Assembly: GCF_026151205.1 (NCBI RefSeq) | Contig: NW_026971775.1 | Span: 60,312 to 124,311 of the forward strand | DNA: 64,000 nucleotides | Source of the DNA: Bolinopsis microptera | Lineage: Eukaryota; Ctenophora; Tentaculata; Lobata; Bolinopsidae | Reading direction: 5' to 3' | Shown here: positions 11,099 to 56,013 of the stretch, in pieces | Layout of the letters: each line of letters begins with the position of its first letter | Position numbering within the stretch: the stretch's first letter is position 1 | Translations under genes and position numbers: made by a program | The notes under the pieces: generated by a model | Told to the model about the DNA's origin: nothing | Database searches by the model: none | Seen by the model: the letters and a program-made list of their open reading frames with translations, nothing else

Positions 11099-11159
11099 AT
11101 GGAATCATAGACCTACTAATTATAAGGTGAGATTCTACAGATTTACATAAAATGCTTTA

Positions 11160-13840: not shown

Positions 13841-13849
13841 AAACTGTTA

Positions 13850-15340: not shown

Positions 15341-15364
15341 TAAGCTAGACCATCGGCCTCCATC

Positions 15365-15611
<247 letters not shown>

Positions 15612-16674: not shown

Positions 16675-16820
16675 GAGATAATTTGATTTTAGTGTGAGGT
16701 TCGATATTTATATGTCCAATCGAATACTTCATGATCATTAACCCATTATGCTTTAAAACGATTATGATCGACTTCTGGTTGATTTCATTACAGTGTAATG
16801 ATATGATTGAAACGTTACAG

Positions 16821-19800
16821 CGTGACTGTGGAGGTTGGAAAACCGTTCAACCTAACATGTGTTGCCCCAAACGGAGAGAACACGTTCCAGTGGTTCCATG
16901 AGGAGTCCATACCTAATGGGTTAGTTATACTACTAGTTACCATAATTACACTAATACTAGTTCCAGTGGTTCCATGAGGTGTCCATACCTAATGGGTTAG
17001 TAATTAGTCCATACCTAATGGGTTAGTAATACTACTAGTTACCATAGTAACACTACTAGTTACTAATGCTCTAATGGGTTAGTTATACTAAGAATACTAG
17101 AATTTGAGGCGTCCATACCTATTATTATTACCTAATGGGTTAGTTATTTATTACCTAATGGGTTAGTTATACTGTATATATATATATAATAACATCTATA
17201 ATGGGTTAGTTATACTATATATATACTACTACTACTATGTCGGAGCTAAGTCCGATCTACGCCAGAAAACCCCCTCCATATATCCCTGTCCCGCATCAGG
17301 GTTCGCAGTTCCTCTTTAGAGTTTGTCCCAACTTCCTTCAGTAACATAGTTATACTAAGAATACTAGAATTTGAGGATTCCCTAATGCTCTAATGGGTTA
17401 GTTATACTAAGAATACTAGAATTTGAGGATTCCCTAATGCTCTAATGGGTTAGTAATACTAAGAATACTAGAATTTGAGGATTCCCTGATGCTCTAATGG
17501 GTTAGTTATACTAAGATTACTAAAATTTGGTACAACACGTCTCTAACACGTCTCCAACACATCTCTAAAACGTCTCTAACACGTCTCTAAAACGTCTCTA
17601 ACACGTCTCTAACACGTCTCTAACACGTCTCTAACACGTCTCTAACACGTCTCTAATACGTCTCTAACACGTCTCTAACACGTCTCTAACACGTTTCTAA
17701 CACGTCTCTAACACGTCTCTAACACGTCTCTAACACGTCTCTAACACGTCTCTAACACGTCTCTAACACGTCTCTAACACGTCTCTAACACGTCTCTAAC
17801 ACGTCTCTAACACGTCTCTAACACGTCTCTAACACGTCTCTAACACGTCTCTAACACGTCTCTAACACGTCTCTAACACGTCTCTAACACGTCTCTAACA
17901 CGTCTCTAACACGTCTCTAAAACGTCTCTAACACGTCTCTAACACGTCTCTAACACGTCTCTAACACGTCTCTGACACGTCTCTAACACGTTTCTAACAC
18001 GTCTCTAACACGTTTCTAACACGTCTCTAACACAGGGTGATGGCTACCCCCTACACTGGAGCTGGTAACGGTTTATCAGCTGTTCTCTCAATTCCAGCAG
18101 CTGAACAAGCTGACGGGGGTTTTTATCAGTGCAGAGTTACGTCCGGAGATAACATCATTTACAGTGATGTAGCCACTGTCTCTCTTCACTGTTAGTTGCA
18201 TAGTGTTTACTTCTTTATATTAAGTCACTGTGTTTAACCTTCTTCTATTTCCCATATTACATTTATTTATTTATTAATTATATTAATAATTATGTAATTA
18301 ATTATATATTTATTAATATAAATAATTATGAATATTCCCGTAGATTTCTCAACGATAACAGCTCAAGTGAAAGCAGTGTCAGTAAACTCAGCAGCAGGAG
18401 CTGTCAGGACCACACTACCCTGTAATATTCCGTCTAGTGTCAGTTCTCCTGCAGCCAAAGTACATTGGTACAAAGGTAGGTCTATAGTTAGCATTTCCAC
18501 TGGATATTGTTTAGGATTATATTACCTATTCTTTAAGACTTTCTTTGAAGATTCTTCCTTTGAGATTTTCAGGGTTGTTAACGATAATTTTCTTCATAAC
18601 AATAAAAATCACTATAATAACATACTAATTAAACTAATTACAACACTACAAATTTATTACATTTATTGAGTATTATATAACGCGATGGAAATATTTTGAG
18701 CGGGTGATATCCTGTCCAAACCCAGGATACATGTAACATGAAGACTTTGTTGTAACTTTGTATGAAAAGCATTAATACTTTATAACTATTTTTCAGACAA
18801 CATATTGGTGGAGAAGATAAACGCGTTTGTTGTTCACGCCAACACCTTACTCAAAGTGGAATCTCTTCCCAGCATTTCCATCACTGACAACTCACTGGTT
18901 TGTCCTCAACACACGTATCTACTTTATAATGCTACTAGCAATATTCTGATCTTACAGCAACATCGATGGTAGTTGTGAATATAACCTTTCCTGGGGACCC
19001 CCAATATGTAGATATTATGCTTAGTTTGCATAATACGTAGATATTATGCAAGCTCGCATAATATTTAGATATTATGCTTAGTTTGAAAACAGCCTTGTAA
19101 CTTAAAATGACCCATTAAGTACTAAGCAATATCTAATAACAGCCTTGTAAAGTTGTAACTTAAAATGACCCATTGTAACTTAAAATGACCCATTAAGTGC
19201 TTAGCAATATCTAATAAGCACTCTACAAGGTCCTGTTCAACATAAAGAAGGAAATGGCCGGACAGTACAGGTGTGAGGCTGAGGTGACTAGTGATCACAT
19301 ATCTGTGAAGAAACAAACTGTGATGACCTACAATCTCACTGTCTCTAAAGGTAACATGTTTATCATAGTAAAATAATAGTGAAATAATAGTGAAATAATA
19401 GTGAAATAATAGTGAAATAATAGTGAAATAATAGTGAAATAATAGTGAAATAATTACATTTTGTTTACACATCTTGTATGGAATATTCTAATTTACCCCG
19501 TTATCCCTAACTTGGGTATTTCTTCAGAGTTCGGAGATGTTAACTACAGTTCCACCACCCTGCTTGTTAACGGAGGTTCAGTAACAGCTGGAGAGACTGT
19601 TACACTGTGTTGCGGTACTGTCGGGTATCTTAACGGTAAGTGTACAGTGGGGCACTGTGTTGTGGTACTGTCGGGTATCTTAACGGTAAGTGTACAGTGG
19701 CCGGGCACTGTTTCCAAATCAGCCAAAAAGAAACAGAATCTTAAATCAGGGAAAAATTAAAGTTACAACTTGTGGGTATGATTAATTTTTTAACCTCAAA

Positions 19801-22800: not shown

Positions 22801-25800
22801 TGTGATCCAAGTTCTTTTTGAAATCTTCTGAAACTTTTCATGCTTATCAAACTATATATTAAATAACACTATGCAAAAATTTATGGTGATTCAATATTTT
22901 ATGCGCACGCAACGTCCGCTCAAAGTTTGCACGTGCGAAAGGTGAGAATTTTGCTCATTCGTGATTTCGAATATATTCTGCTTTCCCACGATATTAAAAT
23001 GGCATTATATATGAATTTAATGCCAACTTGAATGAGTAAAAAGTGCTATATTCAGTCTGTTATTGACAGATATGCCTACCTAAACACAAGGAAACGTTTT
23101 CAAAGGTAAAATTTCGAAATCGTTGAAATTACCTCCTTATTAAGTTTCGACTGTGTAAATTATCCTGACATTATAATCAAAAAGAGATGATATTTGACCA
23201 AAACCCATAATCATGGGTAGAGTGAACCGCTGCCAGTGTCTCTCTTTTCCAAACAAAAGAAAATGATATTAATTTGAGGAACCGTCCGCAAATGCAAATT
23301 GATACCGAGAATGAAATCGGTCGCTCGCTTTTCCCATTCATTCACGGCTTACGTATTGTAATAAAGCTTATTGAATGGGAAAAGCGAGCGACCGATTTCA
23401 TTCTCGGTATCAATTTGCATTTGCGGACGGTTCCTCAAATTAATGTCATTTTCTTTTGTTTGGAAAAGAGAGACACTGGCAGCGGTTCACTCTACCCATG
23501 ATTATGGGTTTTGGTCAAATTATTATATCAATTTATCATTAAATATTTCAACAATATCAATAACTTATGGTTGATTCTTCACACTTAGAAAAATATATTT
23601 AAAAAATTTACTCTGCACTAAAGAATAAATAATTTATATTATGTAAATCAACTATATTATCTCCCCATCTTCTCATAGTCATTTTATCAAAGCGGTAGAA
23701 ATCCAAGTATTTTTTAATACGCGGTGCGCAAGGAATTCCGTTGAAAAAAAAATGAAAAAAAAGAAAGTATGTTTGCAGGTGAGGTACCCACCTACACATG
23801 GTTCACATCCAGTGAAGGAGGAGGATCAGTGCAAATAACAACAGGGTTAAGTGACTTTGGGAGGACTCTAGCGGTCACCACGACCAGCTCTCAATCTTAC
23901 TCTTGTAGATCCTGCTTGGGTGATTCCTGTCAGAGCAGCGCTGTTACTGCTAGTGTTACACCAGGTAAACCGTTACTGCTGGTGTTACACCAGGTAAACC
24001 GTTACTGCTAGTGTTACACCAGGTAAACCGCTACTGCTAGTGTTACACCAGGTAAACCGTTACTGCTAGTGTTACACCAGGTGTTTGTTTGTTTGGGGCT
24101 GGCTTTTACACCAGTCAATGTTTACTCAAAATATATAATAATTGTAATAATCAATATTAATCCCCGAAGGGCACGCAAATTACATGCCATGAAACTCATA
24201 GTTATTTCGTCTAGATTTTATCAGTTGATTCTGATGACCCTGATCTGCAAACACATTTAAAAGCTTAAACGTTTGTGGACACGTTCATTGAAGTTTGAGG
24301 AAATTGGTAAATTTCTAAAACAGCGTTTTTGACGATAGTGGTTTAATTTTAACAATTATTAATCTAGCGTGTTCATAAGTTCTGAACATTAGCCACGTGA
24401 CCCATACTCCCATATGCACTGCTCAAAAATAAAATGTATTGCTTTTAGGCACTATTATGTAAAAAATGTCACATTTTTGTGACATTGTTTACCATAGCTG
24501 CCCAATTAGCATTTTTTGGTCTAAAATATAGTAGATTAGGTCAATCTAACAATTATGATACAATGTAGGCCTAAAGGGCAGTGATCGAACGGCTTTAAGG
24601 CAACATTTCGTAAACTTTGTCACACTCAGAATACGGGACCTCTTTTCTACTGTGAGGTGTCCTCAAAACCCTTTCAACTCATTATTTGATAGTTCTTCTG
24701 CCAATCATAGCCCTAAAATATGTTGTTTTGGAAAATTAACAAATACATGCACTTGGCTATTGGGAAATGATGTAAATTCTGTCACATTATATGGAATTTG
24801 AAATTCTGGGTGAATTTCCGAAATCATTTATATCTGATTTTGGTTTGGAAGGCGGGAAAACTCTATATGAGGACGATACACGGATACAGTTGATTGAAGT
24901 ATAGGGCAGTTGATGTAAACATCGTCACAAAATGATACGAAATCGTAAATGGACACGTTCATGTTGAAGTTTAAGGATATTGGTAAACCAAAAAAAAAAT
25001 AACGTGTTCAGAAGTTCTGGACATTAGCCACGTGACCCATACTTCCATATACACGGCTCAGAAATAAAATTTATTGTTTTTAGGCACTATAATGTAAAAA
25101 ATGTCACATTTTTGTGACTGTGTTAACCATAGCTGCCCAATTAGCATTTTTTTGGTTTAAAATATAGTAGATTAGGTCATTCTAACAATTGTGATACAAC
25201 ATTTGGCTAAAGGGCAGGGATCGAACGGTTTTAAGGCAATATTTCGTAAACTTTGTCACACTCAGAATACGATACCTCTTTTCTACTGTGAGGTGTCCTC
25301 AAAACCCTTTCAACACATTATTTGATGGTTCTTCTACCAATCATAGCCCTAAAATATGTTGTTTTGAAAAGTTAGCAAATACATGCACTTATTGGGAAAT
25401 GATGTAAATTCTGTCACATTAGGGTAAAGCACATAATTTTGTCATTTTTTGGCAATTTTCCGACTGCCTGATATAAACCATGGGTTTTAACCTCGTCTGA
25501 AATTCCGATTTAGATGAAACCTCCACCATGTTATAGTAGACAGTCTAGGCAAGTTCTATCACAAAAATGATCGAAATTGCTGGGGTTGAAGATGTTCAAA
25601 AAAATTATTTTGAAAAAATGACAAAATTAGGTGACTTTACTTAATTTTGTCGCCCCGAACCTAATTTTGTCACTTGAAGATTGTGCAAAAAGTAACCGTT
25701 TCTCGGTATTTTAGACTACCTGGATGCATCATTCGAGCGCTTTTTTACCAACATTGACCTCAAAAATCCCAAAGATATGATGTTTTCATAGTTTTGTAGC

Positions 25801-28800: not shown

Positions 28801-31800
28801 GACGACGGCAGAAGGCCAGGCATGTAATTTATCTTGTGCGTAAACCGTTACTGCTAGTGTTACACCAGGTAAACCGTTACTGCTAGTGTTACACCAGGTA
28901 AACCGTTACTGCTAGTGTTACACCAGATAAACCGTTACTGCTAGTGTTACACCAGGTAAACCGTTACTGTTAGTGCTACACCAGGTAAACCGTTACTGCT
29001 AGTGTTACACCAGGTAAACCGTTACTGCTAGTGTTACACCAGGTAAACCGTTACTGCTAGTGTTACACCAGGTAAACCGTTACTCAATAGACCACTATTT
29101 AATATTACATAACAAACCGGCTAAAATAATATAATACGGGAAAGTGAAAATGCAATTAACTAGAAAACATTCAAATGTAAAAATGAAATAACGCTGAAAT
29201 GGTAACCATGGTAACGAAATGTCCCTCTCAGCTGCTACTAAGATAAAGTTCACTGCTGTTCCAGCAGACTACTACCTTCACGAGGATGGAGTGACACAGG
29301 GAGCTATATCTCTTACTTGCACTACTAATCTAGGAGAGGTTTGTAGTAAAACATCAAATAAAACAGGCGGGAGACACTGCACGTGATGCCCTTATAAGGA
29401 GACATGATATATCAAACTTTAGTTTTGAGATGACGTAACTTTAGCTTTTTTTGGTTCCTTCTAATTTCTTCGACCTTTTAGTTAAAGAAAATGTATTGTT
29501 ATTTATGATTGAGACATTAACCCAAGATTTGGTTACAGGGTAACTGGATCAAGAATGGTGTTTCTGTCTCATTCCCTATAGACCAGCCCAACCCAGCTAA
29601 TTCTGGAATATACCAGTGTTATGTGAAAAACAGTGACTCCTGGCTCATGAAGTCTACTCAAGTCCTCGTTACTGGTGCGTTATAGGGACACTTAGCAGTT
29701 ACACTTAGTTGAGTGTGATGATAGTGGAAGTGAAATGTAGAAATTTTAGCGCTAGATAACATCAAGCGCTAATAACACAACAGTACATTAAAAAATAAAT
29801 ACATTTCAGAAAAGTTGTCAGTGACAAATAACACAACAGTACATTAAAAGATAAATACATTTCAGAAAAGTTGTCAGTGTCAGTGACAAATAACACAACA
29901 GTACATTAAAAGATAAATACATTTCAGAAAAGTTGTCAGTGTCAGTGACAAATAACACAACAGTACATTAAAAGATAAATACATTTCAGAAAAGTTGTCA
30001 GTGTCAGTGACAAATAACACAACAGTACATTAAAAGATAAATACATTTCAGAAAAGTTGTCAGTGTCAGTGACAAATAACACAACAGTACTTTAAAAGAT
30101 AAATACATTTCAGAAAAGTTGTCAGTGTCAGCGACGGCCCCAAGTGAGCTGAACACTACTACTAAAGGATCTGTTTCTTGTACAGTGGGTGGCTACCCAG
30201 CTCCTGAGGTAACCATCTTCAAAACAGATCTCAACAAGGACGACACAGTGAGTACATTATAAGCTTGGTGACACGTTTTTGCTAGTGTTGGTGACACGTT
30301 TTTGCTAGTGTTGGGGACACGTTTTTGCTAGTGTTGGGACACGTTTTTACTAGTAGTTAGGGCACGTTTCTTGCTAGTACTTGGGGACAAAAAACGTGTC
30401 CCCAACTACTTTGGGGCACGTTTTTGCTAGTGTTGGGGACACGTTCTTGCTAGTGTTGGGGACACGTTTTTGCTAGTAGTTGGGGCACGCTTCTTGCTAG
30501 TACTTGGGGCACGTTTTTTCTAGTACTTGGGGCACGTTTTTGCTAGTGTTGGGGACACGTTTTTGCTAGTAATTGGCGACAAAAAACGTGTCCCCAACTA
30601 CTTTGGGGCACGTTTTTGCTAGTGTTGGGGACACGTTTTTGCTAGTATTTGGGAGCAAGTTTTTGCTAGTATTTGGGAGCACGTTTATGCTAGTAGTTGG
30701 GGCACGTTTTTGCTATTAGTTGGGGACGGATTTTTGCTAGTATTTGGGATCAAGTTTTTGCTAGTAGTTGGGCACGTTTTTTAGCAGTTGGGGCATGTTT
30801 TTGCTAGTACTTGGGGGCACGTTTTAGTTGGCGACGTTACTTTATGGCTATCTTTGCGACATGATATGGATCAGATTAGAGTTATCATAAAGAGGTTGGA
30901 AAATAGATTTGCCTTCACTCAAAATACCATGATTTCCTGTAATGTAGTTTAATTATATCACTTTACTTTAATTATAAACCTCCCAGAACATGGTAGCGTG
31001 TGCAGTAGACAAGGCAGATAAAACAAATTGTATTGAACGCAGTGGAAACTCTTACTCGGTTGAAATTGATCACAGTGATCTTGAGTCGTCGGGTAAGGGA
31101 GTGTTTTTTATTTGAAAATTCAATTAATTATTATATATATAAATCGAGCGTTATATTTCAACCATGCAAAATTACGATGACATATTTTGATATACTAATT
31201 GATAAATGGTACTGCAATATAAGTTGCTTAATGTTTGGCCGGATGACAACTAACAAGAAATCAAACATATCATAAATAATTATAAATATTTTGCTCATTA
31301 CAATTCTGTAACAACTGAGAACAAAAAAAACAGTATGTTGAGAACTTTCCAATACTTTTATAAATGATAATTAAAAACATGACGTTATAAAGCAATGAAA
31401 TGGGTTATAATATAGTTTTTATGTTCCTCGCAGTAACTCTATTATTACACCACACCAGGGACATACACGTGTAAAGTTCACCACAAGTACAGGCTATCAG
31501 ATGGGTCAGCTGTTGAGAAAGCTGACGAGAAGTCTGCTCCTGTTGCTATAGGTTTGATAAAACGGAGCTCTTATAGATGCTACTTGAACTAACATCATTC
31601 AAGTCTGTTATAGGGTAGCACTTATAAATGCCAATTATTGAAACCTCGAAGAATACAATAGAATGTTGAAACAATTTGGATGGTAAAATATTAGTGTACT
31701 TATATGGCAATACTCAATGCCCAATTATGTACGCATTGAAATACATATTCAGCAAAGTTTCCTCCTTTAGTTTACTACTTCTCCTTCTTTAGTGTTCCCA

Positions 31801-39592: not shown

Positions 39593-39630
39593 AAAACATG
39601 GAACTTATAAAAGATTTAACTGTTTCGTTA

Positions 39631-39636
39631 AATAAA
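39631..39636 (+). promoter_or_regulatory. Candidate polyadenylation signal AATAAA for tail A
   Basis: Canonical hexamer 39 bases after the tail A stop codon. From here to 40200 no exon is seen. Confidence 0.5.
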
Positions 39637-40209
39637 CATTCTCGTGAAGAGAACAAAAACTACAATGAGTTTAGAAACTGAAAAAATTTTTTCACAGTTT
39701 ATTGGAAATAAAATTGTGTGAGTGATACGTACAACATACAATGGAGGAAATTACTAAGCAGCACTTTGACTGCTTAAAGTGACAATCGATAAAACTAATT
39801 TTGTTGCTCAGCAGCGATTTGGAAAAACTTATACATATATATTTTACAATGGAAATTGTTATTCATTTAATCTATTTACTTATTTCTTTGATATTTATTT
39901 TGATTGACATTTGCTGCATCCATTTCATACAGTAAAATAAGAAAGCCTGTGTTTTAAGGGTATCAAGAAATTAACTCCTATATATAAGATCAAAATCATG
40001 AGTACTATAAATGTTAAATCGGTTCCATGCAATTGTGTGAGCAGGGCATAAATTCGTTGTAATACCAGAAATATATAAATATATATATAAATATACTGAT
40101 TAATCATTCAAAAAATGTATATTTTGCAACACGAACTGCACACATTTTTGATTTGGTGAGAATCAGTGATTTTGGTCAGAACAGAATCCCAAACAGCTAA
40201 TTCTTTCAG

Positions 40210-41307: not shown

Positions 41308-41853
41308 AATTGTATATTTCGATTAAAATGGTTTCCAGTTCGCTGGTTGTATCGACTTATAGCCGATGCTGAAGTGATGTTATATATTTAACCCTACTCC
41401 TTTACAAATATTGTTTATAAATTGGTGGACTTTCATGGATGATAGATATTTAGTTAAAAACGTGCGTCAAATTTTTTAGTTTAGCGTTTATCTGGTGGTA
41501 TAATTAGGAAGTATACAAATTTAGATTATTAGGCAAAACAATTATAAACTGAAAGTAGAAATATTTTTTACTTTTAGTTGGGTTAGTGATGGGATTAGTG
41601 ATTTGTAATTTCAGAATATTTTTATAAAACGTTTGTAATTGAGTAGAGAGGGAGTTTTATTCTGTCATGATTAAAATTTAGTAAATTTAGTGAGGATTAA
41701 CTCTAAAATAAATAAGGATAAATTCTAAAATAAATAATAAAACACAAGCTCTTATATTGATAAAGTTACACAGCACACAAAAACCATAAAGGGCCACAAC
41801 AAATACAAACATATATATTAATGTAAATATAAAATAAGTCATAACAGTTAGTC

Positions 41854-44800
41854 TCAATAACGCTCAGAGCCTGGCCACGTATGGGCACGTGTTCGTTTGG
41901 GTTTCATACCATCACTGATCCCAAATACTACTGTAAAAATCTCTTTGTTCCTAAAACAATAAATCAGAGAGTTGGAGATTGGCCAGAAAGCAATAGCAAT
42001 GTTAGAAGCTATAGAGAGTTGCACAGGTACACCTATCTGGAGTAGGTCTAACACGCTGGCGCAGAATCTTGGAGAGTAGCCAACTACAGCTGCTATGAAT
42101 ATCAGCGCTATTGTCAGGGAGCACTTCAACTTTGCCATTTTAGTGAGCTGTCCTGATACGTCTGAGGTTAGTGAGGTTAGTGAGGTTAGTGAGGTTAGTG
42201 AGGTTAGTGAGGTTAGTGAGGTTAGTGAGGTTAATGAGGTTAGTGAGGTTAGTCAGGTTAGTGAGGTAAGTGAGCTGTCCTGCTACGTCTGAGGTTAGTG
42301 AGGTTAGTGAGGTTAGTGAGGTTAGTGAGGTTAGTGAGGTTAGTGAGGTTAGTGAGGATAGTCAGGTTAGTCAGGTTAGTGGAATTATTGAGGTTAGTGA
42401 GGTTAGTGAGGTTAGTGAGGTTAGTGAGGTTAGTGAAGTTAGTGAGGATAGTCAGGTTAGTGAGGTTAGTGAGGTTAGTGAGGTTAGTGAGGTTAGTGAG
42501 GTAAGTGAGGTTAATGAGGTTAGTGAGGTTAGTGAGGTTAGTGGAATTATTGAGGTTAGTGAGGTGAATGAGGTTAGTGAGGTTAGTGAGGTTAGTGAGG
42601 TTAGTGAGATTAGTGAGCTCTCCTGACTCTTGATACATCTGAGGATGTGAAGTTGTAAAATAAACTTGTAAATATACAATTAAACAAAAAAATGTCCAAT
42701 AAAACAATAATTCATAAAAGTATAATGCTAGTTTGATTTTGAAAGGACAGGTAACAAACGGGCAACTTGTGCGTTCCTGAAAACTTTGGCACTCAAGTTA
42801 CCAATAAAAACACACCATATCTGTAAGAACATTGATCAAAAGAAATTGTTGCAACATTATACTATTATAGGTTGGTTCTTTACCGATTGTTGAAACTCGA
42901 CATGTAGCGTCATTTAGCGTCAGATGACGCTAGATGCCGCTACATGTCGAGTTTCAACTATCAGTAAAGAACCCATGGGTTTAGTTCAATCTTAGATATG
43001 TAAGATTTGACTAGGATGTTATAGTGGTAGTAGTAAACACTGATTAAGATACTCACGAGATAAAGCACCCTTCCTCAAATCGTTTAGTGAAGCCACAAAT
43101 CCAGAGATTGAGCTTTTTCTAGAATCGTGACTTGTTACACTCGGCCTCCTGTCTGATCCCTGGAATTTCAGTTATTAATTAATTAATTAATTATAATAAT
43201 CGGTTATTACTTATTGATAACTTCAAAAAAATTGAAAAAACGTCAAGATAAGAAAATTCAAAATATTGATATCAATTTAGGGATATGGACTGATTTTGTG
43301 TGACTAAGAAATAACCCGGTTACCATAGTAACACAACTAACCCTGCTATTTATCGGAGAAATATTTATCTGAAACTTTACATGTTGTTAATAGTTGTATC
43401 ATGTTGTGATGTATTGTATTTATATAATGTAGTGATTTATATTTATTTACGTCACATATCTGTACCTGATATGAGACAGAGTTAGAGAGACTGTCCCTGT
43501 AGACAGAATAGTTTACCGGGTCCGTCATTCTTCTCCTCTCTTTCTTTTTAGCTTTCCTTTGATTTACCTCTGTGATCCGCCGCTGTCGCTTTGGAGTTAT
43601 CGCAGTTCTTCCGCAGCGCTCTATCAAGATATTGAAATAAGATTAGGATTACTGAGGGGCACTGTGTAGGTAACCAGGTAACCAGGTAACCAGGTAACCA
43701 GGTAACCAGGTAACCAGGTAACCAGGTAACCAGGTAACCAGGTAACCAGGTAACCAGGTAACCAGGTAACCAGGTAACCAGGTAACCAGGTAACCAGGTA
43801 ACCAGGTAACCAGGTAACCAGGTAACCAGGTAACCAGGTAACCAGGTAACCAGGTAACCAGGTAACCAGGTAACCAGGTAACCAGGTAACCAGGTAACAA
43901 TGTAACCAGGTAACCAGGTAACCAGGTAACCAGGTAACCAGGTAACCAGGTAACCAGGTAACCAGGTAACCAGGTAACCAGGTAACCAGGTAACCAGGTA
44001 ACCAGGTAACAATGTAACCAGGTAACCAGGTAACCAGGTAACCAGGTAACCAGGTAACCAGGTAACCAGGTAACCAGGTAACCAGGTAACCAGGTAACCA
44101 GGTAACCAGGTAACCAGGTAACCAGGTAACCAGGTAACCAGGTAACCAGGTAACCAGGTAACCAGGTAACCAGGTAACCAGGTAACCAGGTAACCTTCCG
44201 CAGTAGTCTATCAAGATATCGAAATAAGATTATGATTACTGAGGGGCACTGTGTAGGTAACCAGGTAACCAGGTAACCAGGTAACCAGGTAACCTTCCGC
44301 AGCGCTCTATCAAGATATTGAAATAAGATTAGGATTAAGATGATAATTAAGTGGGTCCCAATCCCCACCGACCATTCTTCTTTGTTTTATGCCCATGTTA
44401 TACTTGCTTCATCATCTCCTTTTTATAACAACCACGGTATCTTTATTGACTAAGCGCATGTTGTAAATGTGTTGAGAAAATTTACATTTCGGTTTTTTTT
44501 GTTAGTCAGAATATGAAACGAGCTTAAACAGATAGAAGATAATAGCGTTATCTAGAGCTTCATTTCATAACAAAAATGAGGGCTTTATAGCGTGTATAAC
44601 ACCTAGAGCTTCATTGAAAAACTAACAGCGGGATCCGGGATTATCAGAATCTATCCCGCTGGCTGGCTTATTATTCAGAGGTGTGTATAATACCTAGAGC
44701 TTCATTGGAGCTGTTAAGGTCTATAAACGGTGCCTGCTTGACATTGTCCTCCGTGAAAACGTTGATTTCAATCTTGGTCACGTGTCTTGGAACCCTGAAA

Positions 44801-47800
44801 TACAATGTTTTACCATTGACAAATCAGTGAGGTAACCAGGGCAACCAGGGTAACTAGGGTAACCAGGGTAATCAGTGAGGTCGGGAGAGTGACACAAGTC
44901 GCCATCGAAGTACTGGACGCAGTATATCCGGAGAAAACTTTGATGTAATGAAAATTTTGAATATGTCCTACCGGTAGAAATATTTGAATTTCAGCTTTCC
45001 GCGACTCAAATTTCACTGAATTATGACTGAATGTTTTTGAATGACCATCTTACAAGGTCACTGAGGATGGCACAAGACTCAATTGAGGTACTCAAAGTTC
45101 TATTCCCAAAGAAAGCTTTGATAAACGGAAAATCATGAGAATATAAAAAGAGGTTGACTCTTACATTTGTTCAGCTGAAGAAGGTAGCTCGTAGGATACC
45201 TTTAACGTTGTGTTCTCAATCTCTAGCTTCTTCACAGTGAGCTGAGATCCTTTGAAAGGTAGTTCCAAGCAATTAGCCACCTCCTGCAACATTGTTCATT
45301 ATATAATATTATATTATATATAATTGTTCATAAGTTAGTTTATGATATTGCCAAAAAGTTAAAAAACAAAAGTACCAAAGATACTAAAATCAGTGCACTC
45401 AAACTAGCATCTGAAGATGTTAAATTTGTTAATGCACTTACTGGAACAATCTCACAGTCGCTAGAAGAGGGAGTGTTCCCACAGGCACTTAAAGTTGCTT
45501 GAGTTGTTCCTATATACAAAAACGGCTCAAAAACAGCAGTCTCTAATTATCGCCCCATCTCATTACTGGCAGCTTTTTCCAAAATTTACGAAAAAGTTAT
45601 GCATGCCAGACTTGTAGAATTCTTGAATCAAAATTCAAGTTTATATGAACGACAGTATGGATTTAGGGCAGGTAGATCTTGTGAACATGCACTTTTGGAT
45701 GCGCAACATACCCTCATCAGCTCATTACATAAAAAGCAAATTTCTCTTCTCCTCCTCATAGATTTTTCAAAGGCTTTTGACATGGTAGATCACAAGATAC
45801 TTCTACACAAGCTTAATCATTACGGTATAAGAGGCATCGCTAATAAATGGTTTAAGTCATACCTTACGAATAGAAAACAATATGTTTATGGAGTACCACA
45901 AGGTAGCATCCTAGGTCCTCTACTCTTTGTCCTATACATTAATGACTTACCTGGCATAAGCACACTAGCAAAGTTTATCTTATACGCAGATGATGCCAAC
46001 ATTATTATATCAGGTAACAACATATATGAGATTAAAGATCAATTGAACCTGCTGTCCCAATCTTTGGTAAAATGGGTTGATGTCAATAGATTACTTATTA
46101 ATCTCAAAAAACAAATTATATGATATTTTCCCGACAGAAGATACCTAATCTCTCCCCAGTTATCATAAACAACGTAAATATCTTGCGCTTGAACGAAGCT
46201 AAGTTCTAAGGTGTGATTCTTGATGAAAAATTAACTTGGTCATCTCACATAAAAGCTCTCAAGTGTAAAATGGCCCGATATGTTGGCATATTGTACAAAA
46301 TCAAATCATACATTCCCTTAGAAGTTAGAATTCAAATCTACCACAGTTTTATTGAATCACACCTAAACTACTGTTCCTTGCTCTGGGGTTTCACGTCCAA
46401 GACCAAAATTGAGTGTTTATTCCGTCAACAAAAGAAAGGTATCAGAGCCGTTATGCCAGGATTCGTGAATCATTTTTATAAAGATGGGATACCTCCTACT
46501 GGTACCAAATCCTTTTTCAGCAACTACTCGATCCTAACCATACACAGCATAATTTTATCTAATTCACTAATTTTCATGAATAAAATTTTCTATTTCCCTA
46601 ATCAGCTCCCTCCTCCCGTAGCAAAAACTATTCACGAAAATGTGCCGACTCGTAACTCGGACGTTATCACTGAAGCTATAGCTATGATCGGTTCAATGAC
46701 TACAATACTGCCACATATAGAAATTCAATATTCTTTAACGGCCCACTCCTTTTTGTAGACGCATCGATAGACGAAGCATTCAATTCAGTGTCATGCCAAT
46801 CGCTGAAGGCGTTCAAATCACAATGTAAGAAAACAATACTGAAGCTGCAGAGGGGGGATGATTGTGTGAATGAGTGGTCCACGAGTAAATTTCTCATCCA
46901 CGAAATCAGTGGCCTCCGTAGGTCCACAAGAAACAGAAATTCCTAACTGTTTTTGCTGCTAATTGGGGCTAAATCCAACGTCCAGAATTAAGTTTAAATT
47001 TGTTTTCTATCACTTTTATACCAAACCAAATGAATGTTATGTTTATAATCTGTAAATCTTTAAAGAGAATCTGTTTGTCGTACAGTGAAATAAATTTTGA
47101 AATTTTGCTTGACGTATTTTCCATTATTTGCAGTTTGTTGCAATTTTATCATTACATTTGTAACGTCTACATAATGTAAATTAAAGAATTAAGATGAAAA
47201 GTTGGGTATGGTAACCGGGTTACCATAGTAACACTACTAACCCTCATTCTTTAGTAGGTAGTGTTACTATGGTAACCGTGTTACCATAGTAACACTACTA
47301 ACCCTCCTTCTTTAGTAGGTAGTGTTACTATGGTAACCGTGTTACCACAGGGACAAAAGGATTTCGCGGCATGTACGAAATCGCGAAATTTCCCATTCTC
47401 CGCGACAAATTTTATGTATAGTTTAATGTATAGCCTGTTAAATTTCGCGGTACCGCGATTTTTGGCCAAAATAATCGCGAAATCCTTTTGTCACTGTGTT
47501 ACCATAGTAACACTACTAACCCTCCTTCTTTAGTAGGTAGTGTTACTATGGTAACCGTGTTACCATAGTAACACGACCAACCCTCTTTCTTTAGTAGGTA
47601 GTGTTACTATGGTAACCGTGTTACCATAGTAACTCTACTAACCCTCCTTCTTTAGTAGGTAGTGTTACTATGGTAACCGTGTTACCGTAGTAACACTACT
47701 AACCCTCCTTCTTTAGTAGGTAGTGTTACTATGGTAACCGTGTTACCATAGTAACACTACTAACCCTCCTTCTTTAGTAGGTAGTGTTACTATGGTAACT

Positions 47801-50800
47801 GTGTTACCATAGTAACACTACTAACCCTCCTTCTTTAGTAGGTAGTGTTACTATGGTAACCGTGTTACCATAGTAACACGACCAACCCTCTTTCTTTAGT
47901 AGGTAGTGTTACTATGGTAACTGTGTTACCATAGTAACGCTACTAACCCTCCTTCTTTAGTAAGTAGTGTTACTATGGTAACTGTGTTACCATAGTAACA
48001 CGACTAACCCTCCTTCTTTAGTAGGTAGTGTTACTATGGTAACCGTGTTACCATAGTAACACTACTAACCCTCCTTCTTTAGTAGGTAGTGTTACTATGG
48101 TAACCGTGTTACCATAGTAACACGACCAACCCTCTTTCTTTAGTAGGTAGTGTTACTATGGTAACTGTGTTACCATAGTAACGCTACTAACCCTCCTTCT
48201 TTAGTAAGTAGTGTTACTATGGTAACTGTGTTACCATAGTAACACGACTAACCCTCCTTCTTTAGTAGGTAGTGTTACTATGGTAACCGTGTTACCATAG
48301 TAACACTACTAACCCTCCTTCTTTAGTAGGTAGCGTTACTATGGTAACCAGGTTACCTACCGTAGTAACGCTACTAACCCTCCTTCTTTACTTACACTCG
48401 CAGCTGCCTCCCCGTTGAGGACTTGTTCAATGCTGTGTTGCAATCTTTGTGTACTCACATCTCCTGGCCTATTCACCGGCTGAAATCATACTATTCTTTA
48501 TCATAAGCACAAATTGGTATTTTAAAGTTTTTAAACCGAGTAAACATTCCAAATATGCGTTTTATGTCCCACGTAGCTAACATTTCTATATTCTATACTG
48601 ATAATCTTAAGATATGTGTTTGTTCGTTCGCATGTAATTACCGAGCGTCTTAATCAAGGAAACGGTTAGAGTTATGGGACTGGTTTTTTCGGTATAATAA
48701 ATAATTTCGACAAAACTTTGACGAACCTAAATGATAAAGGATTTTTAAATCGGTAAGAGCAGTTCTCCCCCATAACAGATTTGCTATAATATCACAATAA
48801 GGTAATTTGGCAGTGTACCTCAAGATTGCCTATCAAGTATCACTATTTCGCATCGTTTTAAAGTTTTAACTACAAATATGTAATGCGTGCTTTCGAATAT
48901 AATGAACGAACCTTCATCTTATTATATGTGCATATATAATATATATATTATATATGTACATATAATATATATATTACAATAAGCGTAACAAAGTAAACGA
49001 TGTTATTGTCCAACTAAAAGTTACATGTTAAAACGAAAATCGTCCTGGATTAGTTAGTTGAGCACTTTGCTGAAAGGAGAAACAAACATGTTTGTATATA
49101 TTACAGTATGTATATTACTCCTACCAAATCATTGTCAGACATGTGTCCAGTTTCCTTCTCTTCTTTAGTAGGTAGTGTTGCTATGGTAGTAGGTAGTGTT
49201 GCTATGGTAGTAGGTAGTGTTGCTATGGTAGTAGGTAGTGTTGCTATGGTAGTAGGTAGTGTTGCTATGGTAGTAGGTAGTGTTGCTATGGTAGTAGGTA
49301 GTGTTGCTATGGTAGTAGGTAGTGGTGCTATGGTAGTAGGTAGTGTTGCTATGGTAGTAGGTAGTGTTGCTATGGTAGTAGGTAGTGTTGCTATGGTAGT
49401 AGGTAGTGTTGCTATGGTAGTAGGTAGTGTTGCTATGGTAGTAGGTAGTGTTGCTATGGTAGTAGGTAGTGGTGCTATGGTAGTAGGTAGTGTTGCTATG
49501 GTAGTAGGTAGTGTTGCTATGGTAGTAGGTAGTGTTGCTATGGTAGTAGGTAGTGTTGCTATGGTAGTAGGTAGTGTTGCTATGGTAGTAGGTAGTGTTG
49601 CTATGGTAGTAGGTAGTGTTGCTATGGTAGTAGGTAGTGTTGCTATGGTAGTAGGTAGTGTTGCTATGGTAGTAGGTAGTGTTGCTATGGTAGTAGGTAG
49701 TGTTGCTATGGTAGTAGGTAGTGTTGCTATGGTAGTAGGTAGTGCTGCTATGGTAGTAGGTAGTGTTGCTATGGTAGTAGGTAGTGTTGCTATGGTAGTA
49801 GGTAGTGTTGCTATGGTAGTAGGTAGTGTTGCTATGGTAGTAGGTAGTGTTGCTATGGTAGTAGGTAGTGTTGCTATGGTAGTAGGTAGTGTTGCTATGG
49901 TAGTAGGTAGTGTTGCTATGGTAGTAGGTAGTGTTGCTATGGTAGTAGGTAGTGTTGCTATGGTAGTAGGTAGTGTTGCTATGGTAGTAGGTAGTGTTGC
50001 TATGGTAGTAGGTAGTGTTGCTATGGTAGTAGGTAGTGTTGCTATGGTAGTAGGTAGTGTTGCTATGGTAGTAGGTAGTGTTGCTATGGTAGTAGGTAGT
50101 GCTGCTATGGTAGTAGGTAGTGTTGCTATGGTAGTAGGTAGTGTTGCTATGGTAGTAGGTAGTGTTGCTATGGTAGTAGGTAGTGTTGCTATGGTAGTAG
50201 GTAGTGTTGCTATGGTAGTAGGTAGTGTTGCTATGGTAGTAGGTAGTGTTGCTATGGTAGTAGGTAGTGTTGCTATGGTAGTAGGTAGTGTTGCTATGGT
50301 AGTAGGTAGTGTTGCTATGGTAGTAGGTAGTGTTGCTATGGTAGTAGGTAGTGTTGCTATGGTAGTAGGTAGTGTTGCTATGGTAGTAGGTAGTGTTGCT
50401 ATGGTAGTAGGTAGTGTTGCTATGGTAGTAGGTAGTGTTGCTATGGTAGTAGGTAGTGTTGCTATGGTAGTAGGTAGTGTTGCTATGGTAGTAGGTAGTG
50501 TTGCTATGGTAGTAGGTAGTGTTGCTATGGTAGTAGGTAGTGTTGCTATGGTAGTAGGTAGTGTTGCTATGGTAGTAGGTAGTGTTGCTATGGTAGTAGG
50601 TAGTGTTGCTATGGTAGTAGGTAGTGTTGCTATGGTAGTAGGTAGTGTTGCTATGGTAGTAGGTAGTGTTGCTATGGTAGTAGGTAGTGTTGCTATGGTA
50701 GTAGGTAGTGTTGCTATGGTAGTAGGTAGTGTTGCTATGGTAGTAGGTAGTGTTGCTATGGTAGTAGGTAGTGTTGCTATGGTAGTAGGTAGTGTTGCTA

Positions 50801-53800
50801 TGGTAGTAGGTAGTGTTGCTATGGTAGTAGGTAGTGTTGCTATGGTAGTAGGTAGTGTTGCTATGGTAGTAGGTAGTGTTGCTATGGTAGTAGGTAGTGT
50901 TGCTATGGTAGTAGGTAGTGTTGCTATGGTAGTAGGTAGTGTTGCTATAGTAGTAGGTAGTGTTGCTATGGTAGTAGGTAGTGTTGCTATGGTAGTAGGT
51001 AGTGTTGCTATGGTAGTAGGTAGTGTTGCTATGGTAGTAGGTAGTGTTGCTATGGTAGTAGGTAGTGTTGCTATGGTAGTAGGTAGTGTTGCTATGGTAG
51101 TAGGTAGTGTTGCTATGGTAGTAGGTAGTGTTGCTATGGTAGTAGGTAGTGTTGCTATGGTAGTAGGTAGTGTTGCTATGGTAGTAGGTAGTGTTGCTAT
51201 GGTAGTAGGTAGTGTTGCTATGGTAGTAGGTAGTGTTGCTATGGTAGTAGGTAGTGTTGCTATGGTAGTAGGTAGTGTTGCTATGGTAGTAGGTAGTGTT
51301 GCTATGGTAGTAGGTAGTGTTGCTATGGTAGTAGGTAGTGTTGCTATGGTAGTAGGTAGTGTTGCTATGGTAGTAGGTAGTGTTGCTATGGTAGTAGGTA
51401 GTGTTGCTATGGTAGTAGGTAGTGTTGCTATGGTAGTAGGTAGTGTTGCTATGGTAGTAGGTAGTGTTGCATTGCTATGGTAGTAGGTAGTGTTGCTATG
51501 GTAGTAGGTAGTGTTGCTATGGTAGTAGGTAGTGTTGCTATGGTAGTAGGTAGTGTTGCTATGGTAGTAGGTAGTGTTGCTATGGTAGTAGGTAGTGTTG
51601 CTATGGTAGTAGGTAGTGTCGCTATGGTAGTAGGTAGTGTCGCTATGGTAGTAGGTAGTGTCGCTATGGTAGTAGGTAGTGTCGCTATGGTAGTAGGTAG
51701 TGTCGCTATGGTAGTAGGTAGTGTTGCTATGGTAGTAGGTAGTGTTGCTATGGTAGTAGGTAGTGTTGCTATGGTAGTAGGTAGTGTTGCTATGGTAGTA
51801 GGTAGTGTTGCTATGGTAGTAGGTAGTGTTGCTATGGTAGTAGGTAGTGTTGCTATGGTAGTAGGTAGTGTTGCTATGGTAGTAGGTAGTGTTGCTATGG
51901 TAGTAGGTAGTGTTGCTATGGTAGTAGGTAGTGTTGCTATGGTAGTAGGTAGTGTTGCTATGGTAGTAGGTAGTGTTGCTATGGTAGTAGGTAGTGTTGC
52001 TATGGTAGTAGGTAGTGTTGCTATGGTAGTAGGTAGTGTTGCTATGGTAGTAGGTAGTGTTGCTATGGTAGTAGGTAGTGTTGCTATGGTAGTAGGTAGT
52101 GTTGCTATGGTAGTAGGTAGTGTTGCTATGGTAGTAGGTAGTGCTGCTATGGTAGTAGGTAGTGCTGCTATGGTAGTAGGTAGTGTTGCTATGGTAGTAG
52201 GTAGTGTTGCTATGGTAGTAGGTAGTGTTGCTATGGTAGTAGGTAGTGTTGCTATGGTAGTAGGTAGTGTTGCTATGGTAGTAGGAAGTGTTGCTATGGC
52301 AGTAGGTAGTGCTGCTATGGTAGTAGGTAGTGCTGCTATGGTAGTAGGTAGTGTTGCTATGGTAGTAGGTAGTGGTGCTATGGTAGTAGGTAGTGTTGCT
52401 ATGGTAGTAGGTAGTGATGCTATGGTAGTAGGTAGTGTTGCTATGGTAGTAGGTAGTGTTGCTATGGTAGTAGGTAGTGTTGCTATGGTAGTAGGTAGTG
52501 TTGCTATGGTAGTAGGTAGTGTTGCTATGGTAGTAGGTAGTGTTGCTATGGTAATAGGTAGTGTTGCTATGGTAGTAGGTAGTGTTGCTATGGTAGTAGG
52601 TAGTGTTGCTATGGTAGTAGGTAGTGTTGCTATGGTAGTAGGTAGTGTTGCTATGGTAGTAGGTAGTGTTGCTATGGTAGTAGGTAGTGTTGCTATGGTA
52701 GTAGGTAGTGGTGCTATGGTAGTAGGTAGTGCTGCTATGGTAGTAGGTAGTGCTGCTATGGTAGTAGGTAGTGCTGCTATGGTAGTAGGTAGTGGTGCTA
52801 TGGTAGTAGGTAGTGGTGCTATGGTAGTAGGTAGTGTTGCTATGGTAGTAGGTAGTGTTGCTATGGTAGTAGGTAGTGTTGCTATGGTAGTAGGTAGTGT
52901 TGCTATGGTAGTAGGTAGTGTTGCTATGGTAGTAGGTAGTGTTGCTATGGTAGTAGGTAGTGTTGCTATGGTAGTAGGTAGTGTTGCTATGGTAGTAGGT
53001 AGTGTTGCTATGGTAGTAGGTAGTGTTGCTATGGTAGTAGGTAGTGTTGCTATGGTAGTAGGTAGTGTTGCTATGGTAGTAGGTAGTGTTGCTATGGTAG
53101 TAGGTAGTGTTGCTATGGTAGTAGGTAGTGTTGCTATGGTAGTAGGTAGTGTTGCTATGGTAGTAGGTAGTGTTGCTATGGTAGTAGGTAGTGTTGCTAT
53201 GGTAGTAGGTAGTGCTGCTATGGTAGTAGGTAGTGTTGCTATGGTAGTAGGTAGTGCTGCTATGGTAGTAGGTAGTGTTGCTATGGTAGTAGGTAGTGTT
53301 GCTATGGTAGTAGGTAGTGTTGTTATGGTAGTAGGTAGTGTTGCTATGGTAGTAGGTAGTGTTGCTATGGTAGTAGGTAGTCTTGCTATGGTAGTAGGTA
53401 GTGCTGCTATGGTAGTAGGTAGTGTTGCTATGGTAGTAGGTAGTGTTGCTATGGTAGTAGGTAGTGTTGCTATGGTAGTAGGTAGTGTTGCTATGGTAGT
53501 AGGTAGTGTTGCTATGGTAGTAGGTAGTGTTGCTATGGTAGTAGGTAGTGTTGCTATGGTAGTAGGTAGTGTTGCTATGGTAGTAGGTAGTGTTGCTATG
53601 GTAGTAGGTAGTGCTGCTATGGTAGTAGGTAGTGTTGCTATGGTAGTAGGTAGTGTTGCTATGGTAGTAGGTAGTGTTGCTATGGTTACAGCTCCACGAG
53701 AGTAGTCTAGAGAGCACTGCTGACAGTTTCCATTCACCTGTCATATTGCAACTTCCTTACAAGGTAATATCACCATAGTAGCACTACCATATAAGGTAAG

Positions 53801-56013
53801 ACTGTGATATTGCAACTTCCTTATAAGGTATATATCATTACTTACTTACTCGGTATATACAAGTATACACATTTCCATAACGGTGTAATCTATATAATCA
53901 TCATATATTTGTTGGTGGAAATATGTCGAATCAGTGAAAATTGCCAATCAAATTTTAGAAATCATTAGTGTTTTGCCAAATTTTTGATTACTGATGGAAA
54001 GTGTTAGCTGGATATCACACTTTTTAGGTAATATTATGAAGGAGCAGTGGTATCACACTTTGTAGGCAGCGACTTACTTTATTGGTGAGAGAGTATTTGC
54101 TGCCTCGACTAGACACTGGAGATTGAGTGAAAGTTGATCGATCAAATCTGAAAAATGGGTTGTGGACATTAAAATTTAAATGATCTAACTTGTCTTGATC
54201 CAACATTCGATTTAAAAACCTGTTGAAAACATATTACACCCTCTTATATAGAATAATAAATTATACTATTACTTACGATGATTCCATTCTCTCTTTACTG
54301 TGATAGTTGGCTGTTGAGGGGCTCAATGCTAATAGTGGGAACTTTATCTTCATTCTACGTATCTCCAGTAGAATATTTACGTAGAAGAAGGATAGGATGA
54401 TAGTGAGGAACGGTAACCATAGCACGTGGCACCAATAGTAACCTGTAAATATTATGAAGGAGCAATAGTAACCTGTAAATATTATGAAGCAGCAATAGTA
54501 ACCTGTAAATATTATGAAGGAGCAATAGTAACCTGGAAATATTATGAAGGAGCAATAGTAACCTGTAAATATTATGAAGAAACAATAGTATCACACTTTG
54601 ATATTATAGTAACTTTGAAATATGCGATTATAAAATTTAGATTTTTTTAAATTTACAAACAAATGAGTTAAGTGATGAGCACATTATATTAAAATTAAAC
54701 TAACAAACTTGTTATATTATCATTACCTGAAATGGGTTTGGGGTACGGTTGAGAGAAATCCGGTGAAATGCTGCACATGAACTTTCTATAGTCCTGTACA
54801 TTTACATGGTTATAATGGTTATAATGGTAACCATGTAAAAATACTTTTACAAAAGTAGTAGTACTAATGAAAGTAAGCAGTATTTAAATTATAGAGGTTG
54901 TAACTACATGTACAAAGTACATGTAGATTGTAGAGATGTAGCTATGAATTGTCACGAACAGAAAAGCCAACCTTATCAATATTGAGTATAACGAGAAAGG
55001 GAGTATGTATAAAGATAGGTAGGACCCACGCCACTGCGCACAGGAGATGAACTCTCTGTCTTGACTTTAACAGGGAACTGTATTGCAGTGGGAGCAGTAT
55101 CGCTAGGTAACGGTCCAAGCCTATAAACACTAGGAGAAGGAACGATACCTGAAACATAACCATAACATAAAGGTTATGGAACATAACCATAACATCAAGG
55201 TTATGGAACATAATCATAACATGAAGGTTATTAAACATAACCATAACATAAAGGTTATGGAACATAACCATAACATAAAGGTTATGGAACATAATCATAA
55301 CATAAAGGTTATGGAATATAACAAGGTAATGTGTAACAGGTTAAATAAACCTTAGCTCATTTTGAAGTCCTCCAATAAAAAAGCTTTTAAGCATTAGCTA
55401 AGATATATATTTGTAAGTTAAACACAAGCATTATTTATATATATATATATATATATTATTATAGATATATATTATTATAGATATACTAACCCTGGTGAGC
55501 AGGATTACAAGGACTTCAGTAGGTTGACAGGTGGAGTTGTGGTGTACCACTGGAGATGTGAGGAAACTGTGCCCTAACGCAGCTACAGCTAGCAGCATGT
55601 CCGCGACTGAAATTAAAACTCGAGTTACATTTGTTTTTAAGTATTTAGCTCTCTTGAGTGGGTCGATCATGACCAAATACCCCTTTATATAATAAAGGAT
55701 ATCGATATCATGATATCGATAAATTACTGGAGACTCTTATTTCGTCCCCAGCTCAGTAAGTTAAATTTGTTTAGAATATTTTATCAGAATTTAGCAGATA
55801 TTATGCTTATCATAAAAAGCTTTCTAAAACGTATTTTAATCCTCATCGGTGGTTTTGTGTGATTAATTCTACTAAAGGTTAGTTATCAATTAATTAATTA
55901 ATTATGTATTTTTAATTAAAAGGTTAATTATTTGAAAGCTCAGACCTGTAAGATGGAGAAGTAGAAGCTGAGCTCTTCTTTTCAAAACTTTTTTCGGTTC
56001 TCTTATAAACGCA
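41854..56013 (-). CDS. GPCR gene 2: rhodopsin-family receptor with a very long third intracellular loop
   Basis: Thirteen minus-strand exons, in transcript order: 56013-55946, 55606-55491, 55148-54972, 54793-54727, 54442-54277, 54147-54078, 53737-53690, 48479-48396, 45283-45165, 44794-44694, 43620-43466, 43159-43057, 42152-41854 (TGA). Every phase closes; 523 residues are present. They give ICL1 and TM2 (LLLLHLTVADMLLAVAALG), TM3 with DRY (GLDRYLAILLPLQY), TM4 (CAVAWVLP), a Cys in loop 2 (FMCS), TM5 (WLPFLTIILSFFYVNIL), then about 250 residues of ICL3 with a polybasic run (RKAKKKERRRM), TM6 (KCSLTIALIFIAAVVGYSP) and TM7. TM7 has NSLIY in place of NPxxY, and TM6 lacks CWxP. The end of exon 55148-54972 (AAG|GTTGGC) is the least certain junction. 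TM1 and the N-terminus were not found; a 4.7-kb foldback lies directly upstream. Ligand unknown. Confidence 0.87.
42167..42640. repeat. 9-bp array (GAGGTTAGT)n between three copies of a splice acceptor
   Basis: Copies of GAGGTTAGT flank a second copy (42262-42292) of the minus-strand acceptor region AGTGAGCTGTCCTG.TACGTCTGAG that borders the last GPCR exon at 42152. A third, degenerate copy (GAGCTCTCCTGA..CATCTGAGG) lies near 42613-42643. Long frames (SEV or LTN repeats) are artefacts. Confidence 0.92.
42874..42973. repeat. 100-bp hairpin element
   Basis: GGTTCTTTACCGATTGTTGA...ACATGTAGCG is followed by its near-perfect reverse complement CGCTACATGT...TAGTTGAAACTC-type arm ending GTAAAGAACC, with a short AGCGTCAGATGACGCT centre. 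MITE-like, in a GPCR gene 2 intron. Confidence 0.8.
43640..44330. repeat. 8-bp array (GGTAACCA)n and triplicated acceptor block
   Basis: About 65 copies of GGTAACCA (43667-44193) plus five more (44256-44294). They are punctuated by three copies of the block CCGCAG.G.TCTATCAAGATAT (ends at 43611, 44197 and 44296). The block contains the minus-strand acceptor CTTGATAG|AGCGCTGCGG of exon 43620-43466. The middle copy reads CAGTAGTC, and the outer two are intact. Confidence 0.93.
45345..47110 (+). mobile_element. 5'-truncated, inactivated non-LTR retrotransposon (CR1/Jockey-like)
   Basis: Reverse-transcriptase signatures are clear: NYRPISLL, DFSKAFDMVDH, GVPQGSILGPLLFVLYINDL and the catalytic YADD near 45985. 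A thumb region follows (GVILDEKLTW, and HLNYCSLLWG near 46365). The frame is broken by a TGA at 45500-45502, by a one-base shift near 46108 and by a TAA near 46208. The 3' end is A+T-rich (AAATAAATTTTGAAATTTTG near 47100). No endonuclease domain remains. It lies in a GPCR gene 2 intron, antisense to that gene. Confidence 0.92.
47205..48390. repeat. 60-bp self-palindromic array abutting a splice donor
   Basis: About 18 units of GTGTTACCATAGTAACACTA, CTAACCCTCCTTCTTTAGTA, GGTAGTGTTACTATGGTAAC. Each unit is itself an inverted repeat. One unit (47345-47500) is interrupted by about 140 bp of a separate palindrome (GACAAAAGGATTTCGCG...CGCGAAATCCTTTTGTC). On the minus strand the donor of exon 48479-48396 reads AGT|GTAAGTAAAGAAGGAGGG and continues directly into the array unit. 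Confidence 0.93.
49165..53685. repeat. 4.5-kb 21-bp array (GGTAGTGTTGCTATGGTAGTA)n
   Basis: About 215 copies, near-identical, with one 5-bp insertion near 51472 and clustered variants (GTCGCT at 51618-51712, scattered GTGCTGCT and GTGGTGCT). On the minus strand it starts in effect at the donor GCT|GTAACCATAGC of the 48-nt GPCR exon 53737-53690. Frames of 740-1547 codons across it are repeat artefacts. Just left of it, 48500-49160 holds no gene. Confidence 0.97.
54432..54592. repeat. 30-bp splice-acceptor array (minus strand)
   Basis: Six copies of AATAGTAACCTGTAAATATTATGAAGGAGC. On the minus strand each holds ATTTACAG|GTTACTATTG, the acceptor and first bases of the GPCR TM5 exon (54442-54277). 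Only the leftmost copy continues into the exon. Confidence 0.93.
55150..55318. repeat. 27-bp array next to the TM3 acceptor
   Basis: About six copies of AACATAACCATAACATAAAGGTTATGG directly upstream (minus strand) of exon 55148-54972. The unit (minus: ATGGTTATGTTCCAT) resembles the real acceptor ATGGTTATGTTTCAG, with the AG lost. Confidence 0.88.

Follow-up and report, generated by a model that had tools for sequence, protein, structure and literature searches.

The window, that is, the whole stretch of 64,000 nucleotides that was analysed (G000:C16:60312-124311, in an assembly of 264.65 Mb and 232 contigs), contains two convergent receptor genes, predicted to encode an Ig-domain receptor and a rhodopsin-family GPCR. 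The gene models of both receptors are based on open frames and homology, and their junctions are predicted ones. The 24 exons of the Ig receptor and the 13 exons of the GPCR each join into one open frame with GT..AG introns, and the joined models match Pfam domains Ig_3 (E=5.1e-38) and 7tm_1 (E=3.1e-15), respectively. The genes, and the tandem arrays and copied segments at their junctions, are listed in Table 1.

Table 1. Receptor genes of the window and repeats located at their predicted splice junctions.
Feature	Position	Strand	Remarks
Ig-domain receptor gene (predicted)	16821..39592	+	24 exons modelled from 16821 onward; single open frame; Pfam Ig_3
Rhodopsin-family GPCR gene (predicted)	41854..55606	-	13 exons modelled; single open frame; Pfam 7tm_1
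Donor 16919, exon end plus donor with near copy in intron	16890..17001	+	30-base word at 16966, 1 mismatch
11-mer array, 45 copies, ending 2 bp before acceptor 18036	17534..18033	+	
50-bp tandem duplication across donor 19635, 2 copies	19603..19700	+	
29-mer array across donor 23964	23943..24082	+	
Second block of the 29-mer array (donor 23964)	28840..29084	+	
62-mer array across acceptor 30114	29771..30135	+	
45-mer array, 56 copies, across acceptor 34277	31781..34301	+	15-codon frame open
157-mer array with four tRNA-Ser(GCT) genes (- strand), 1 bp short of the intron end (acceptor 35962)	35344..35960	+	
9-mer array abutting acceptor 42161; exon-start copies inside or beside it	42163..42617	-	
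Copies of acceptor 43620 plus exon start around an 8-mer array	43620..44337	-	
Exon-end copies of donor 44694, dispersed	44540..44700	-	
61-mer array in the intron, beginning 5 bp from donor 48396	47496..48390	-	
21-mer array, 215 copies; coding repeat or intron	49166..53686	-	
32-mer array at acceptor 53737	53738..53830	-	
30-mer array across acceptor 54442	54433..54590	-	
27-mer array with one end 4 bp from acceptor 55148	55153..55322	-	

Tandem Repeats Finder returned 100 rows for the window, and 41 merged arrays are present in 23 of the 35 introns. The arrays are made of tandem units in head-to-tail order, which places them among minisatellites (VNTRs), a class defined by units of ∼6-100 bp. 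At 14 of the 70 junctions of the window an array edge lies at most 10 bp away or an array crosses the junction, and at 9 of the 70 the junction itself has copies, either in tandem or near by. Five arrays include more than 4 bp of exon, namely the 50-mer at donor 19635, the 29-mer at donor 23964, the 62-mer at acceptor 30114, the 45-mer at acceptor 34277 and the 30-mer at acceptor 54442. Seven others abut a junction within 8 bp, among them the tRNA-Ser(GCT) array at acceptor 35962. The four tRNA-Ser(GCT) genes of this latter array, which is located in an intron of the Ig receptor gene, are found at 35386-35938 on the minus strand in tandem units of 157 bp; about six units are present in the sister contig C17 described below.

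An earlier note on this DNA had named 12 junctions at which an array starts or the splice site is copied, and ten of these sites were borne out. The exon-end word of donor 16919 recurs within the intron, again followed by a donor, and the 50-mer at donor 19635, present twice, repeats the donor at 19685. The 29-mer and the 62-mer each extend 22 bp into the exon, the 45-mer 25 bp and the 30-mer 10 bp, and the 11-mer and 61-mer arrays indeed end or start within a few bases of acceptor 18036 and donor 48396. Copies of acceptor 43620 were found near 44207 and 44306. The exon-end copies reported for donor 44694 are present as well, but they are dispersed and not tandem. Which acceptor is used at the 45-mer array is ambiguous because its units hold in-frame AGs. 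An array also abuts the acceptor that had been placed at 42152, but the acceptor consistent with the frame is 42161, and the twelfth site, donor 53690, is doubtful (see below). Further sites within 10 bp, absent from that list, are acceptors 35962 (1 bp), 53737 (0 bp), 55148 (4 bp) and 49157 (8 bp, at the other end of the 21-mer array), and donor 55491, which has a TA-rich array 5 bp away.

A second copy of the locus is present, in the opposite orientation, on contig C17. The 34 of 37 exons that were compared contain 37 differences in 4554 bases (99.2% identity), and we take C16 and C17 to be presumably alleles. In addition, contig C108 covers positions 7882-24079 of the window at 96-97% identity, with many single-base indels where it was read. 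Beyond C16, C108 and C17, the matches listed for a 280-bp query over the genome were repeat units or matches of 70-80%. Of the 37 exons, the 36 that were looked for (all but one of 6 nt) were recovered in C17 as separate matches; this is a comparison of the two copies alone, and the 21-mer region in it is ambiguous.

Comparison of the intron arrays with this copy revealed extreme turnover of copy number between genes whose exons are nearly identical. Copy numbers in the window and C17, respectively, are 2 and 276 for the 50-mer, 45 and 133 for the 11-mer, 13 and 21 for the 29-mer, 56 and 35 for the 45-mer, 50 and 108 for the 9-mer, 5 and 8 for the 30-mer, 6 and 4 for the 62-mer, 6 and 3 for the 27-mer and 215 and 7 for the 21-mer. 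For the 61-mer they are 15 and 56, leaving out a second window block of 2.3 copies. Other arrays are unchanged, such as the 12-mer at 37189 (17.3 copies in both). Altogether, 16 of the 22 arrays on a hand-made and incomplete list differ in copy number. The 29-mer array, a single block of 21 copies in C17, is split in the window by an insertion of ∼4.8 kb (24083-28839) that C17 lacks. Within intron 19636-23778, the stretch 20027-23519 contains short AGCGCT-rich arrays. This stretch is missing at the C17 counterpart, where the flanking matches lie 65 bases apart, and part of it matches C17 elsewhere. Outside the arrays the sisters differ by four indels of at least 10 bp, as seen in the 26 of 33 exon pairs that could be aligned (seven pairs were skipped for length). 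Only one of the four is a tandem duplication, an 87-bp segment across donor 18475 that is duplicated only in C17.

The sister copy bears directly on donor 53690, which the earlier note had listed and which lies beside the 21-mer array. In C17 the frame is open through this array into both flanking exons; in the window it is broken by a shift. Some of the supposed introns may thus be translated coding repeats of variable length, encoding (TIATLPT)n in the case of the 21-mer of the GPCR and (VDVYSLTTTPSLVSP)n in that of the 45-mer of the Ig receptor. We regard this as a real but tentative possibility, which can coexist with the interpretation given below. It is favoured by the seven units (TIATLPT) of the C17 21-mer array, which are in frame with the exons on either side, and by the 45-mer frame, which stays open in the window and in C17 alike; the 55 and 34 units parsed contain no indel that changes the frame. 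However, the 21-mer frame of the window shifts midway and meets 109 stops on read-through, and the open 45-mer frame extends back only to 31771, so that an acceptor in an early unit would be required. Nor is there an excess of silent changes among the array variants; comparing silent with replacement variants in these two arrays was rejected as a decisive argument, the variants being too few.

To what extent the arrays are positioned non-randomly depends on the null that is chosen. When arrays were re-placed at their present length, 4.3-6.7 of the 70 junctions were expected to be crossed by an array or to have an array edge at most 10 bp away, against the 14 observed, and in the per-array form of this null 12 touching arrays were observed against 1.9 expected. 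This re-placement was rejected as the main null because the arrays themselves have lengthened the introns, so that it exaggerates the effect. We therefore used collapsed introns, in which each array is reduced to one unit and a segment of unit length is dropped randomly among the positions that overlap the intron; the limit for touching a junction was 8 bp. This founder null was applied to 34 of the 35 modelled introns, the 21-mer 'intron' 49158-53689 being left out as doubtful.

Under the founder null the 12 touching arrays of the window compare with 6.0 expected (p 0.006), or with 8.4 (p 0.08) when insertion-free lengths, taken from the sister contig for the two large introns only, were used. 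The arrays that span a junction agree with this null (5 against 3.5, or 5.1 with insertion-free lengths), and the excess is in those that abut one (7 against 2.5, p 0.008; 3.2, p 0.034, insertion-free). Within 20 bp of a junction there are 16 arrays against 11.4 expected (p 0.054), and within 8 bp of acceptors 8 against 4.2 (p 0.042). Pooling all 109 introns, those of the loci described next included, gave 18 touching arrays against 12.0 (p 0.03), or 14.4 (p 0.15) insertion-free.

For an independent sample, family searches supplied six loci for myosin (L048-L053, with 30 arrays in 49 introns) and three further ones for Ig proteins (L056-L058, with 8 arrays in 26 introns), giving 75 introns and 38 arrays. 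Another 28 of the 30 loci obtained in the 7tm_1 search served only for codon training because they are mostly single open frames. For a glutamate-receptor frame, kainate and AMPA receptors were the best among the 60 PDB matches listed out of 246. The exons were obtained with a small splice-and-codon model, which on the window genes gives exact ends for 18 of the 24 and 6 of the 13 curated exons and places false exons inside arrays. Introns were accordingly kept by hand, where they lie between exons that read as myosin or Ig and their phases agree, and doubtful parts were left out, for instance the duplicated-exon stretch of L048, 3891-4291 of L050 and parts of L052, L053, L056 and L057. In three joined myosin pieces compared with PDB myosins, 17 of 19 exon borders had, by our reading, no gap in the alignment within five residues, and the other two had a small adjacent gap; this check covered 19 of the 75 introns. 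Read by hand, the myosin borders behind the edge crowding described below appear mostly sound. In L048 (∼2586-3089) a myosin exon is present in two tandem versions (LVRCNPVLEAFGNAKT[IL]KNDNSSRFGKFIRIHFG), which resemble mutually exclusive exons.

In the nine other loci the arrays touching a junction within 8 bp equal expectation (6 against 6.0, made up of 3 against 4.0 in the myosin loci and 3 against 2.0 in the Ig loci), and no excess of junction-spanning arrays was found in their 75 introns (2 against 2.7). Arrays with more than 4 bp of exon amount to 5 of 39 in the window, 2 of 8 in the other Ig loci and 0 of 30 in the myosin loci. Junction-spanning examples in the other Ig loci are an acceptor-spanning 15-mer array in L056 and a clean new case in L057, a 41-mer present four times (2652-2815, reverse strand) that spans the donor at 2679. 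Array edges do crowd the intron ends at somewhat greater distance. Of the six distance limits tried, 4, 8 and 12 bp gave no excess in these loci, and the excess appears at 16-30 bp: 15 arrays within 16 bp against 8.1 expected (p 0.003), and 17 within 20 bp against 9.1 (p printed as 0.0 from 20,000 simulations). By side, the latter are 10 against 4.5 at acceptors (p 0.006) and 7 against 4.5 at donors (p 0.15). Hence the earlier view that array edges are not random within introns holds for loci other than the one on which it was based.

The second part of that view, that exon-intron boundaries are preferentially duplicated, is not supported. Junction words are copied at 9 of 70 junctions of the window against 18.4 of 70 for random intronic positions, exon interiors being at ∼1.8%, and at 10 of 218 junctions over all loci against 24.1 expected from intron interiors. 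Since spanning arrays are at expectation and junction words are copied less than intron interiors, the boundaries are not preferentially duplicated. Duplication frequency over exon, junction and intron is a gradient without a peak at junctions; junctions are no hot spot of duplication, and arrays mostly stop just short of the boundaries. The premise that ordinary minisatellites would start randomly and seldom meet junctions was too strict, the median length of the introns being 184-342 bases. Two look-alikes are thereby separated: duplication of junctions, which is not above chance, and the crowding of arrays at intron ends, which is.

How spanning arrays may arise was studied by reading microhomology by hand at seven spanning founders (five in the window, one in C17 and one in L057; 16919, 44694, 43620, 42161 and the L056 15-mer were left out of this set). 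At five of the seven, exon and intron share a direct repeat, of 8, 6, 6, 5 and 3 bp: TACTATTG at the 30-mer, CACTGT at the 50-mer, GTTACT at the 29-mer, CAATA at the 41-mer of L057 and CTG at the 87-bp duplication of C17. No clear direct repeat was found by hand at the 62-mer and 45-mer founders. Repeats of at least 5 bp at four of seven founders have a p of ∼7e-8 under a simple base-match model with alignments made by hand, and a trailing partial array copy can mimic microhomology. Because exon and intron share direct repeats at these founders, slippage or microhomology-mediated duplication is suggested as their origin.

Taken together, these results are probably best explained by ordinary minisatellites of a repeat-rich genome that occupy its short introns as far as the splice signals, with no process aimed at splice sites. 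Judging from the breakpoint sequences, slippage or microhomology-mediated tandem duplication would copy the segment between two short direct repeats. A splice site would be carried along wherever the exon edge holds one of these repeats and the intron its partner. Since the splice-site copy next to the exon would keep it intact, the change would be nearly neutral, whereas duplications within exons would be removed; arrays bearing splice sites would then be tolerated because the exon-proximal site survives. Unequal exchange or further slippage presumably causes the rapid expansion and contraction that is seen as differences in copy number. The arrays would fill the introns until constrained splice signals are met, and this may be why edges pile up, as observed, within ∼20 bp of junctions and chiefly at acceptors. 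No recognition of the junction would be required.

Several results count against this explanation. Copy number differs between the window and C17 for all 10 arrays that touch a junction, as opposed to 6 of 12 others (p 0.015), a comparison that is based on the hand-made list and confounded by array length. The tandem indel at donor 18475 spans a junction, and in the window both the abutting arrays and those within 8 bp of acceptors are in excess. A local process at intron ends might instead found arrays preferentially, for example by slippage of the acceptor pyrimidine tract or by transcription-coupled damage; seeding by pyrimidine tracts near acceptors could be the main rival explanation of the edge pile-up in particular. 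The crowding within 20 bp in the other loci, above all at acceptors, agrees with such a process, as do the array-bearing junctions of the window under the present-length null, its touching arrays under the founder null and the independent junction-spanning arrays of L057 and L056. Against a process of this kind, junction-spanning arrays show no excess, intron interiors are duplicated more often than junctions, the other loci equal the null within 8 bp, and walls formed by splice signals would produce edge crowding too. We consider it unlikely, though well worth keeping in mind.

The present arrays have a close parallel. Human genes in segmental duplications contain minisatellites with units of ∼30 bp, some of them at exon-intron boundaries, which can change splicing (PMC2812944, 2009). 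The likeness is in boundary minisatellites that vary between near-identical gene copies; transcript support is available there, whereas our data are sequence alone and the arrays reach hundreds of units. The present arrays are, on that basis, probably of the same kind and are unusually large. Among the titles listed in the literature searches made here, no other dealt with arrays at exon-intron boundaries. In the potato RdRp gene a tandem genomic duplication of intron-exon structure made a new intron (PMC4974935, 2016, which also recounts the AGGT duplication model of Rogers 1989). The two cases share a junction-spanning tandem duplication that carries splice signals, but a new intron arose in potato, whereas here, among the 36 exons looked for in the sister, no modelled exon-exon border was found to be missing, the 21-mer region aside. 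Similarly, the intronic VNTR6-1 of TERT, reported to affect splicing (PMC11830802), resembles the present arrays in being a polymorphic minisatellite in an intron of a gene.

Arrays of splice sites may also make receptor isoforms haplotype-specific, alleles differing in their isoform repertoire through array length alone. If true, a single Ig receptor gene, with up to 276 tandem copies of one donor and with 35-56 acceptor units in frame, each of 15 codons, could yield proteins that differ in stalk length, but on present sequence evidence we think this very improbable.

Finally, the earlier note had raised selection for redundant splice sites. All 272 parsed units of the 50-mer in C17 retain GTAAG, other positions varying by up to 27%, and GTAAGT lies wholly within the invariant half of the unit (p 0.014), which again counts against the explanation preferred here. 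Likewise, CTTTAG is intact in 55 of 55 (window) and 34 of 34 (C17) units of the 45-mer, most positions of which are invariant. In the 29-mer array of C17, by contrast, the donor word is intact in only 17 of 20 units and varies at 0.06 per site against 0.008 elsewhere in the unit. With this faster decay, and with only ∼2 copies of the 50-mer in the window and C108, retention of redundant sites as a back-up is not general and is highly improbable as the explanation of the arrays. With one splice donor repeated in tandem twice in one copy of the gene and 276 times in a near-identical one, the locus is a striking natural case for studying how exactly splice sites are chosen.

Two other features of the window may be mentioned. 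The segment 45300-46950 (minus strand), within an intron of the GPCR gene, resembles by eye the remnant of a retroelement reverse transcriptase. At 11521-13705 there is a large inverted repeat, the arms of which were seen in the sequence and also as inverted matches via C108.
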